DNA of 64,000 nt from the NCBI RefSeq assembly GCF_000828085.3, contig NZ_JXCA02000027.1:62126-126125 (forward strand), given 5' to 3'. The notes below the pieces were generated by a model, which was not told the origin of the DNA, did no database searches, and saw only the letters and a list, made by a program, of their open reading frames with translations. Of this stretch, positions 12,380 through 16,535 are shown one piece after another. The stretch's first letter is position 1, and every line of letters starts with the position of its first letter. This DNA comes from Scytonema tolypothrichoides VB-61278. Lineage in GTDB: Bacteria > Cyanobacteriota > Cyanobacteriia > Cyanobacteriales > Nostocaceae. A program made the translations under genes and the position numbers.

Positions 12380-14548
12380 GTGACCTACTGCATCAACCCG
12401 TGGTGTCAACAGCGCCAAAATCCTAATTATGTGGAGCGTTGTCAAACCTGTGGGAATAGCTTATTTGTAAATGAGCGATATCAGTTAGTAAAACCGTTGC
12501 GCGAATTGCGCCAACAACAATATACTGAAGTCTTTGAGGTAGATGATCGGGGGACGCGAAAAGTCCTAAAGGTTCTCAAAGAAGACGATCCGAAGTTGGT
12601 CGAAATGTTTCAGCGAGAGGCAAGCGTCTTGAGGTATCTCAAGCACCCAGGAATTCCCATAATCGAGCCGGATGGATACTTTACCTTTACCTTGACGCTT
12701 GGCTACGGTTCTAAGATCTTGCACTGCTTAGTGATTGAGAAAATTGAGGGGCAAAATTTATGGCAGTGGCTGAACCAGAATAAACCAATTTCTCAAAAGC
12801 AAGCTCTAGTTTGGTTGCAACAACTTGTAGAAATTCTAGCTTTAGTGCATGAAAACAAACTTTTCCATCGGGATATCAAACCATCTAATATCATGCTCAA
12901 ACCTGATGGTCAACTTGTGTTAATTGACTTTGGTGCTGTTAAATATGGCACAAAAGCTTATTTAAGTAGTATAAGTAAGGGTTTTGAAGGTACGATCATA
13001 TTGTCATCTGGTTATACGCCCCCAGAACAGATCGAAGGCAAAGCTGTCAAGCAATCAGATTTTTATGCACTAGGGCGAACATTTGTCAACTTACTAACAG
13101 GTAACCCTCCAAGTGCATTTGTTGAGGACTCGACAACAGGTCAGTTAATTTGGCGAGATAGTGCTCCAGGGATCTCGAAACCATTGGCAGATTTAATTGA
13201 TTCGCTGATGGCTTTTTCTCCAAATCACAGACCTGAAAATACGCGGGTTATTTTGCAAAGACTAGAAAAGATTAGTCGCGAAACTGATGAATTGATGCAA
13301 GCTATAGAGTCATCAATTCGTTCAAGTTTGTCACAACTGCCTCCACCGCTAAAATATTTTACCGAAAAAATTCTCAAAAAGAAACTTCAGCGGTTGGCGA
13401 AGCAAAGCAGAATTCCTAAAATAGCTCTTTACGGGCGTTCTGGTGCGGGCAAATCATCTCTTATTAATGCCATTTTGGGACGGAGTGTTACTGAGGTTGG
13501 CTTAGCCAGAGCAACAACACAAATCACTGAAATATACGATTATGAGCGCAACGGATGGAAATTAAGATTCGTAGACTCACGTGGTGTAGGTGACTCACGG
13601 GATCATGCAGCCTTTCAACAAGCTATTAACGACGTTGTCCAAAACAAAGTAGACATCTTGTTATTCGTGATTCCGGCTGATGAGCGAGCATATGTGCCTA
13701 GCGATATTGATTTTCTCACTGAACTGAAATCAACGCACAAGCGAAAACATGGAGTTGAACTACCAGTCATTTTGGTTTTAAACAAGATTGATCGAATTCA
13801 ACCCACCTCGGAGTGGAATCCGCCCTATAAAGTTTTTGACTTCCAAACTCAGGATGCCAAATTCAAAACAGCCAGACAACAAGCAAAGGAAGCAAATATT
13901 CGTGATTGCGTGATGGCGAGAATCACTGAGTACAAAACTCTGAGTTCAATGTATGTTTATGTTTGTACTTTATGGGATGAATACGACGATAAACGTTACA
14001 ACATAGAAGAACTCGCTCTACGAATATATAAATGCATTCCTGACGAAGCTGGTAAACAGGGCTTTGGAGGAGCAACCGCCGCTATCACACTCAAGAAAGC
14101 TGTCGCCAGAGATTATACATTTGTCGCAGCATGTTTGGCATTTGTTGCTGACTGGTTTCCTTTTGGTGATTCAAAGGGAGTTTCGTCGATACAAAATCGC
14201 TTGGTGAGTATGATTGCCCAAATTGCTACTAACGGAGATCAGACCAATCAAGCCGAAAAATTATTGAGACAATTGGGTGTTCAACAAGCTGATACGAAAT
14301 CACCTATGTCTACTACATTCGCAATTGGTGAAGCGGCGATTCGTTACTTTATTGAGCAAGACAGCACTATGGAACAAGCGCAGCAAGCTTTTGCGGCAGA
14401 AAAAGAGCGACGAGAACCAGAATTCCAAGAAGCACTCAAGGGAGGAACTAACAAAGTAATGAGCAAACTGCGAGAGATAGATCAAGAACTATATGAACGC
14501 TACGGCTTGCCACGTATGTATGAGGATGAGAAGGATGATATATTGTGA
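12380..14548 (+). CDS. zinc-ribbon Ser/Thr kinase fused to Era/dynamin-like GTPase
   Basis: 722 residues, three parts. (1) A four-Cys zinc ribbon at residues 4-24 (Cys4, 9, 21, 24), as in cyanobacterial kinases. (2) A Hanks-type kinase at about 34-290, with a KVLK segment for the lysine, HRDIKPSN (163-170) and DFGA (183-186). (3) A GTPase at about 345-530 with P-loop GRSGAGKSS, switch Thr region ARATTQIT, DSRGVGD as G3 and NKID as G4, followed by a helical tail with a hydrophobic segment (YTFVAACLAFVADWFPFG) as in GTPases with DUF697-like ends. Start is GTG 12380 (TYCINPWCQQRQNP, the usual start of these kinases). Its stop overlaps the amt start by 4 bp (GTGA), so translation is probably coupled and a link to ammonium uptake is inferred. 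Substrates are unknown. Confidence 0.88.
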   Translation: MTYCINPWCQQRQNPNYVERCQTCGNSLFVNERYQLVKPLRELRQQQYTEVFEVDDRGTRKVLKVLKEDDPKLVEMFQREASVLRYLKHPGIPIIEPDGYFTFTLTLGYGSKILHCLVIEKIEGQNLWQWLNQNKPISQKQALVWLQQLVEILALVHENKLFHRDIKPSNIMLKPDGQLVLIDFGAVKYGTKAYLSSISKGFEGTIILSSGYTPPEQIEGKAVKQSDFYALGRTFVNLLTGNPPSAFVEDSTTGQLIWRDSAPGISKPLADLIDSLMAFSPNHRPENTRVILQRLEKISRETDELMQAIESSIRSSLSQLPPPLKYFTEKILKKKLQRLAKQSRIPKIALYGRSGAGKSSLINAILGRSVTEVGLARATTQITEIYDYERNGWKLRFVDSRGVGDSRDHAAFQQAINDVVQNKVDILLFVIPADERAYVPSDIDFLTELKSTHKRKHGVELPVILVLNKIDRIQPTSEWNPPYKVFDFQTQDAKFKTARQQAKEANIRDCVMARITEYKTLSSMYVYVCTLWDEYDDKRYNIEELALRIYKCIPDEAGKQGFGGATAAITLKKAVARDYTFVAACLAFVADWFPFGDSKGVSSIQNRLVSMIAQIATNGDQTNQAEKLLRQLGVQQADTKSPMSTTFAIGEAAIRYFIEQDSTMEQAQQAFAAEKERREPEFQEALKGGTNKVMSKLREIDQELYERYGLPRMYEDEKDDIL

Positions 14549-16044
14549 AATTTGACAGAATGAAATTGCAGTCTCAACCAAAACTCAAAGAATTAAAGTG
14601 CAAAAAAAGCTGGCTGTCACTGAATTGGAAATTCAGCTTACCCTTGGCAGCTATCATTGTGCTGATTTTGAATTACGCCGCAGTTGCCCAAACTTCTACA
14701 TCCCCAGTACAATCCTCTCTAAGCTTACAAGTAGCTGTGGACACGGTATGGGTGCTGTTCACTGGTTGTTTAGTATTCTTTATGAATGCTGGCTTTGCAA
14801 TGTTGGAAACAGGCTTGTGTCGTCACAAGAATGCCGTTAATTTATTAGCTCAAAACTTCATTGTATTTGCAGTGGGGACAATAGCTTTCTGGGTAATTGG
14901 CTGCGCGCTCATGTTTGGGGACAACACAAACCTATTGTTTGGAACAAAAGGTTGGTTTTTTGATGGGACAGACCAACAGATGTTCAAATCTCTTAATTCT
15001 AATGTACCTCAAACAGCTCTATTTTTCTTTCAACTCGTTTTTGCAGACACTGCAGCAACTATTTTTACTGGGGCGGTTGCTGAACGGATTAAGTTCATTG
15101 CATTTTTGATCTTTAGCTTTTTACTTATTGGTATTTCCTACCCCATTACTGGTCATTGGATTTGGGGAGGTGGTTGGTTATCCAAATTAGGATTTTACGA
15201 TTTTGCCGGTTCGACTGTGGTTCATTCGGTTGGTGGTTGGGCTGCTTTAGTGGGGGCTTGGTTGTTGGGACCACGTTTGTACAGAGTTGAATCGAACGGT
15301 GCACCGGTTTATCGCTATCTCAAAAACGGTAGCAACATTGCTATGCCTGGGCATAATCAGAGTATGGCGACTCTGGGGGGCTTTATTCTTTGGTTGGGCT
15401 GGTTTGGCTTTAATGCAGGTTCAACGCTGAGGGCTGATCCTGGTGCGATCGCTCATATTTTGCTCACAACCAACATGGCAGCTGCAACAGGTGGTATTGC
15501 AGCAACCCTGATCTCCTGGTGGCGCTTTGGTAAGCCTGAACTTACCATGATCCTGAATGGAGTCTTGGCAGGTTTGGTATCCATTACAGCTTCTTCTGCC
15601 TTCGTTAGCATTCGCAGTGCGTTTTGGATTGGTCTGGTTGCAGGAACTCTTGTGTTCTTCTCAGTGCTTTTTATAGATACAAAGTTAAAAATAGATGACC
15701 CTGTGGGTGCGATTTCAGTTCACCTTGTCAATGGTATTTGGGGAACACTCGCTGTGGGCTTATTTAGCGTCGGTATAGAAGATACACTGCGTAATAATGC
15801 TGTGCAATTTGCACCTGGTCCCAAACCGGGATTATTCTGTGGTGGGGGTTTAGAACAATTCTTGATTCAGTTACTTGGTGTTATCTCAGTGGGTATTTTC
15901 ACATTTGTGTTCAGCGCTCTTGCTTGGTCGGCAATTAAAGCTACAGTTGGTCTACGAGTTTCACCCCAAGCGGAACTTGATGGTTTGGATATTAGTGAGC
16001 ATGACATGGATGGTTACCACGGGTTTGAGAAGAAAGACGTGTAA
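14545..16044 (+). CDS. amt: ammonium transporter, Amt family
   Basis: Inner-membrane ammonium channel/transporter, 499 residues from GTG 14545; ATG 14560 is an alternative start. A signal-peptide-like segment (LPLAAIIVLILNYAAVAQ) precedes the eleven-helix core, as in other Amt proteins. Family signatures include GFAMLETGLCR, FADTAATIFTGAVAER, the pore segment ISYPITGHWIWGGGWL with the first pore His, and VGAISVHLVNGIWGTLAVG with the second. The C-terminal tail (SPQAELDGLDISEHDMDGYHGF) is the conserved cytosolic gate region that GlnK/PII contacts. No glnK is adjacent; instead the gene is coupled to the kinase-GTPase upstream. Confidence 0.95.
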   Translation: MKFDRMKLQSQPKLKELKCKKSWLSLNWKFSLPLAAIIVLILNYAAVAQTSTSPVQSSLSLQVAVDTVWVLFTGCLVFFMNAGFAMLETGLCRHKNAVNLLAQNFIVFAVGTIAFWVIGCALMFGDNTNLLFGTKGWFFDGTDQQMFKSLNSNVPQTALFFFQLVFADTAATIFTGAVAERIKFIAFLIFSFLLIGISYPITGHWIWGGGWLSKLGFYDFAGSTVVHSVGGWAALVGAWLLGPRLYRVESNGAPVYRYLKNGSNIAMPGHNQSMATLGGFILWLGWFGFNAGSTLRADPGAIAHILLTTNMAAATGGIAATLISWWRFGKPELTMILNGVLAGLVSITASSAFVSIRSAFWIGLVAGTLVFFSVLFIDTKLKIDDPVGAISVHLVNGIWGTLAVGLFSVGIEDTLRNNAVQFAPGPKPGLFCGGGLEQFLIQLLGVISVGIFTFVFSALAWSAIKATVGLRVSPQAELDGLDISEHDMDGYHGFEKKDV

Positions 16045-16058
16045 TAAATCTTCACTAG

Positions 16059-16535
16059 TTAGTCAGGTATCTTACTTCCTCTATACATAAGAGGATGAGA
16101 AAATTTACCATCTTTACTAGTATTTTTTGATACAGAGTCTTGCAATTTGGTCTGATTTGAGTTTGTGCTCTGGGACTCCTCATCTTTGAGTACAGCCTTC
16201 AACTTGTCCACAGTGCGATTGATATCTACAACTAGCATCCCTTCTGGAACATTACTAGCTATGACTAGTAAGAAAATATCAGGGCTACAGGTGGTTAAAA
16301 TCACATAACCGTCTCCACCTTTAACTGAAATCTGATCAATTCCATCCCATTGCACTTCCTTACGGGTGCGGTTAGCCAAATAAATCATCGTTCCCGCCAT
16401 AATCAATGCGGAATTCTCATCCATCCCAATTGTTGCGATCGGCTTACCCTCAGAATTCACGAGTGCTGTACCCTGAAAGCCCATCATGTTATTAGCAAAT
16501 TTTTTTAAAATTCCCCTGATCTCGTCTATATTCAT
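16059..16535 (-). CDS. roadblock/LC7-domain protein
   Basis: 158 residues. The first 115 form a roadblock/LC7 fold: MNIDEIRGILKKFANN, then GTALVNSEGKPIATIG, and SPDIFLLVIASNVPEGML. The last 40 residues are a polar tail. Bacterial members (MglB and relatives) bind small Ras-like GTPases, often as GTPase-activating partners. No mglA-type gene is adjacent. The nearest GTPase is the kinase-GTPase fusion across amt; the genes are convergent, 14 bp from the amt stop. Confidence 0.85.
   Translation of the reverse strand: MNIDEIRGILKKFANNMMGFQGTALVNSEGKPIATIGMDENSALIMAGTMIYLANRTRKEVQWDGIDQISVKGGDGYVILTTCSPDIFLLVIASNVPEGMLVVDINRTVDKLKAVLKDEESQSTNSNQTKLQDSVSKNTSKDGKFSHPLMYRGSKIPD

Follow-up and report, generated by a model that had tools for sequence, protein, structure and literature searches.

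What function does a gene coding for a kinase fused to a GTPase serve directly 5' of amt, a gene for an ammonium transporter? The sequence-only reading of the window (the whole stretch of 64,000 nucleotides analysed) had proposed that the fusion protein controls ammonium uptake. We refer to the kinase and GTPase fusion as KG. It is encoded by a single open reading frame (12380-14548, forward strand; 722 residues) and consists of a 4-Cys prefix (aa 3-28; NF045510, 30.2 bits against a cut-off of 24), a Hanks-type Ser/Thr kinase (about aa 34-300; Pkinase, 103 bits, residues 50-289), an Era/Der-type GTPase (about aa 345-540; MMR_HSR1, 52.3 bits against a cut-off of 21.9, residues 347-469) and a helical C-terminal domain (about aa 541-706). 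The Pfam models AIG1 and Dynamin_N also scored above cut-off over the GTPase region, but more weakly than MMR_HSR1. The scores were far below both the Era and the Der equivalog cut-offs, indicating that the GTPase is neither Era nor Der itself. In an alignment, the catalytic residues of the kinase (K61/K64, E80, HRD 163-165 and DFG 183-185) and the GTPase motifs G1 (GRxGxGKSS), G3 (DSxG) and G4 (NxID), which read GRSGAGKSS, DSRG and NKID in the window, were unchanged in 12 homologues. The combination of a zinc ribbon, a kinase and a GTPase in one protein, as read earlier, is therefore found here, but the zinc-ribbon (4-Cys) prefix is confined to the Brasilonema-type copies of KG and most relatives in the alignment are without it. 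The glycine-rich ATP loop of the kinase is degenerate in the Brasilonema-type copies and intact in most relatives. The AlphaFold model gave low confidence for the packing of the domains (pTM 0.44), and the hhalign match of the C-terminal domain to DUF697 spanned 48 columns with a probability of 29%. The window's organism is a Brasilonema-like filamentous cyanobacterium, and the closest relatives in the species collection are those of Brasilonema (88-92% identity over KG); the 55 matches to KG in the window's own genome are mostly to kinase domains.

The stop codon of KG (TGA, 14546-14548) is found together with two candidate starts of amt in the same short stretch of the forward strand (14545-14562), a GTG at 14545-14547, forming the overlap GTGA, and an ATG at 14560. 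At two related loci (L004 and L007) the first codon of amt is an ATG located 13 nt past the KG stop, with the GTG either missing or in another frame, while at a third (L005) the KG stop lies earlier. The ATG at 14560, 11 nt from the KG stop, is the in-frame equivalent of the start used by the relatives. Judging from this comparison, amt probably starts at 14560, and the GTG in the overlap is probably not the real start. Thus, the overlap from which translational coupling had been proposed is literally present, but it is specific to this genome, and distances of 97-480 nt between KG and amt in other genera argue against a conserved coupling. For these reasons, we regard the two genes as closely spaced rather than as demonstrably translationally coupled. 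No NtcA site (GTAN8TAC) was detected 5' of KG (the whole window has 13, against 8.8 expected), and promoter and terminator scans returned signals no more than shuffled expectation.

Using the GTPase and the C-terminal part of KG as the query (E < 1e-30), we searched 391 sampled genomes of the order. KG was present in seven of these, at nine loci, with 43-54% identity outside the window's genome. At seven of the nine loci (the window's genome included), distributed over three families and five genera, amt is located directly 3' of KG on the same strand. The same linkage was found on four further contigs from Brasilonema, one of which carries only a remnant of amt. The two unlinked loci, in G118 and G255, are second copies, and both genomes also hold a linked copy, which in G255 is incomplete and broken by a stop. 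Samples of the class and the phylum, each a fraction of its group, and plasmids yielded no further KG above the limits used, except for one distant Streptomyces GTPase. Since the linkage survived a search for fusions without amt nearby, we conclude that there is good support for KG and Amt being functionally linked. In Brasilonema UFV-L1, the KG-linked amt (L006:8102-8428) was reduced to a remnant through an internal deletion, with KG and the Roadblock gene described below intact and no other copy of the same amt in the genome, suggesting that KG can outlast amt, at least for a short time.

A third partner had been overlooked. A Roadblock/LC7 gene (16059-16535, reverse strand; 158 aa; PF03259, 25.2 bits against a cut-off of 23) is convergent with amt, 14 nt away from it. 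A convergent Roadblock gene (about 140-165 aa) is found 3' of amt at every KG-amt locus; the sequences from G363 and G118 individually score below the Pfam cut-off, and their membership comes from the alignment. With three Roadblock genes above cut-off and three amt genes in the window's genome, only 0.002 cases of a Roadblock gene within 200 bp of amt are expected by chance. AlphaFold predicted a Roadblock fold (pLDDT 80) with a disordered tail ending in MYRGSKIPD. The best Foldseek matches were Asgard Roadblocks, MglB and LAMTOR2 (with E-values of 8e-10 for a Roadblock and about 2e-7 for MglB), and profile comparison detected solved Roadblocks, including CvnB5, and weakly MglB. What was previously seen as a pair thus looks like two parts of a three-part module. 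A tail resembling YR(G/N)x(R/K), following a long extension, is frequent in Roadblocks associated with Amt or an NTPase (in the window, and at L075, L077, L106, L109 and L111); small Roadblocks adjoining MglA-like GTPases lack it. Possibly, this tail serves as a docking peptide.

The pairwise distances of the three proteins at the nine loci are correlated (KG-Amt, 0.95; KG-Roadblock, 0.92; Amt-Roadblock, 0.93). When the partners of the paralogues in G118 and G255 were swapped, the correlations dropped to 0.53 and 0.59, and relatedness of the species alone therefore fails to explain them. None of 5000 permutations reached the observed correlation, a count that comes from nine non-independent loci. 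In G118 and G255, the KG copies that lack an adjoining amt have their matching Amts encoded elsewhere in the genome, each beside a Roadblock gene (L075, L076). Three groups are shared by the three protein trees, namely Brasilonema, {G096, G118a, G255a} and {G186, G084, G118b, G255b}, of which the second has support in the KG tree and agrees with the small trees of Amt and the Roadblock without being resolved there. G363 groups with Brasilonema in the Amt tree and forms a long branch in the other two. These observations are suggestive rather than conclusive of coevolution. The association of KG, amt and the Roadblock gene itself is well supported, and we hold it with considerable confidence.

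Is KG the constant element of this association? We built a Roadblock profile from the amt-linked loci and tested it on 37 genomes outside the model set. The best further matches adjoin amt in genomes without KG. Nine Amt-Roadblock neighbours were found in the 37 genomes against 0.2-0.4 expected, which supports an association rather than giving a rate for all Roadblocks, because an amt-linked profile is biased towards that class. The neighbourhoods comprise amt with a DUF697-type GTPase and a Roadblock (G174, and G186 from the model set), a GTPase fused to a Roadblock beside amt (G161), a P-loop NTPase with amt and a longer Roadblock protein (G306 and G315; within 4 kb in G333) and amt with a Roadblock alone (G226, G042 and G238); in G118 and G186 amt is followed by a kinase. 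The GTPase of KG and the DUF697-type GTPase have a common P-loop core. The third type scored above the cut-off of no GTPase family and is hence named P-loop NTPase only. In the Amt tree the neighbourhood labels are clustered (for KG and for unlabelled rows, none of 500 shuffles was as low), and the canonical group, which includes the other amt of the window's genome, carries none of them. As the Roadblock is kept where KG is absent, the partner that stays constant beside Amt is the Roadblock, often with a GTPase, and not the kinase. A natural GTPase-Roadblock fusion of 566 aa (L126:4561-6258) unites parts that are encoded individually in a close relative (L077), and L116, L120, L122 and L123 show a separate conserved cluster of a Roadblock, another protein, which we take to be DUF4388-like, and an MglA-like small GTPase.

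The transporter itself (14560-16044, forward strand, with a longer frame from the GTG at 14545; TIGR00836, 432 bits against a cut-off of 343) keeps the twin histidines, the Phe gate and the equivalents of D160 and W148 (residues F, W, D, H, F, S and H). With all the pore residues checked intact, transport is likely retained. At the pore-closing positions of Ks-Amt5 (F27, Y30 and F34; PMC5764959) the window's Amt has F/L/L, so that two of the three bulky residues are absent and, unlike Ks-Amt5, its reading frame stops after a normal tail with no fused histidine kinase. There is therefore no sign that the window's Amt is purely a sensor; if it senses at all, it would do so as a transceptor. The closest solved structures include Ks-Amt5 and a 644-aa Amt, a match that does not discriminate because a canonical Amt of the same genome gives it likewise. 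The lack of an adjacent glnK, previously taken to favor control by KG, proved uninformative. Of the three amt genes in this genome (contigs C4 and C8), this locus included, not one has a P-II gene beside it, the P-II genes being on C1, C3 and C9, and cyanobacterial PII acts on Amt1, as demonstrated in Synechocystis (PMC6603209).

In MglA/MglB and in conservons, GTPases are under the control of Roadblock proteins (PMC4316618). The simplest common reading gives Amt the role of membrane partner to a GTPase switch that a Roadblock controls. We consider the chances about even that KG, Amt and the Roadblock work together as a single signalling module at the membrane of the cell. This would be a membrane ammonium transceptor, or a regulated transporter, in which a Roadblock governs the GTPase switch and, in the case of KG, a fused Ser/Thr kinase delivers the output. 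Amt would conduct and/or sense ammonium. The Roadblock would bind the GTPase of KG and set its nucleotide state, either as a putative GAP-like regulator or as a scaffold bringing the GTPase into contact with Amt, and the GTP/GDP state, coupled to the occupancy of Amt, would toggle the fused kinase on or off. Since a separate pair of canonical amt genes is also retained in the genome, we infer that Amt is more likely the input, as a transceptor, than merely a regulated carrier. Against such a module, KG is rare and patchy, two genomes have an unlinked copy, Brasilonema UFV-L1 has kept KG with a mere remnant of amt, and the putative control of an Era-type GTPase by a Roadblock would lack an established precedent. 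More tentatively, and with somewhat less than even chances, the locus may belong to a cyanobacterial family of ammonium transceptors with a Roadblock-controlled GTPase output, in which the GTPase types are exchangeable and a Ser/Thr kinase was fused in one lineage, a logic like that of transporter-Ragulator-Rag-kinase nutrient sensing.

The linkage and the coevolution also fit the opposite direction, that of the sequence-only reading, here extended by the Roadblock, in which KG and the Roadblock would take the place of PII and regulate transport by Amt, e.g., through phosphorylation or GTP-dependent assembly. In plants and fungi the tails of Amt/Mep proteins are known to be phosphorylated (PMC7737296, PMC4852598), and with its pore residues intact this Amt likely transports. 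However, a comparison of the Amt tails revealed no enrichment of S/T at the equivalent of T460 of plant AMT1;1 in the KG-linked Amts (S, S, S, T, Q, Q and Q at the linked loci, with S also in several canonical Amts), leaving this phosphosite without comparative support, and the Roadblock, often with a GTPase, stays beside Amt where KG is absent. We hold control of transport by KG to be less likely than not. Of the proposed tie between KG and ammonium uptake, the functional link stands on the conserved linkage, but the arguments from the overlap, the missing glnK and T460 fail.

It seems improbable that the block was simply transferred together, its genes having no joint function. The patchy spread of KG could stem from few such transfers and TnpB-like genes flank two of the loci, but gene order is kept though the proteins are down to about 50% identity and the flanks differ, different GTPase types occur in the same Amt-Roadblock neighbourhood, and matching paralogues were co-retained after KG moved. 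A defence or conflict system based on the kinase and the GTPase is very improbable: the KG kinase matches the PADLOC PD-T4-6 models (368 bits), but the match is generic, as other 4-Cys kinases of the genome reach equal or higher scores (up to 509 bits), Amt and the Roadblock match no PADLOC defence model, and the locus is syntenic among Brasilonema genomes with metabolic genes as neighbours.

The signalling module preferred here resembles the MglA/MglB system of Myxococcus and the conservons (CvnA-D) in that a Roadblock lies beside a GTPase, the conservons also having a membrane-bound sensor (PMC4316618). It differs in that the GTPase is of the Era/Der type and fused to a Ser/Thr kinase rather than a small Ras-type MglA, and the membrane partner is an ammonium transporter instead of the histidine kinase of the conservons; among the genes examined near KG, no histidine kinase or MglA-type GTPase was found, the neighbouring GTPase being KG. 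As in AmtB-GlnK, the gene for a cytoplasmic regulator adjoins amt, but the protein classes are different and none is P-II. The SLC38A9-Ragulator-Rag GTPase-TORC1 system likewise brings together a nutrient transporter, Roadblocks, a GTPase and a kinase (PMC5618229). This is an analogy only; we claim no homology of transporter or kinase, and the match of KG to the Rag Pfam model is marginal (23.5 bits against a cut-off of 22). KG shares its prefix and kinase domain with the cyanobacterial 4-Cys Hanks kinases and differs from them by the GTPase fusion; a survey of cyanobacterial kinases (PMC2176072) has no occurrence of GTPase or GTP, and a 2025 review makes no mention of a GTPase-kinase fusion. 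In the literature searched, with subscription journals mostly outside its scope, we found no Amt-Roadblock pairing. The linkage suggests an undescribed bacterial coupling of membrane ammonium to a GTPase-and-kinase signal. If so, PII and histidine kinases would be joined by a further kind of signalling output for ammonium transporters, bacterial Roadblock-GTPase switches would gain a defined membrane partner and a likely stimulus, and one of the roughly fifty Hanks-type kinases per such genome would gain an upstream signal. Ks-Amt5 and other Amt-signalling fusions also tie Amt to a signalling output with no adjacent glnK (PMC5764959), but here the output, consisting of GTPase, Roadblock and Ser/Thr kinase, comes from genes separate from amt. 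Large fusions of Amt to apparent two-component signalling domains (open reading frames of about 1150-1220 aa) also occur in the same order, at L060, L061, L062 and L066.
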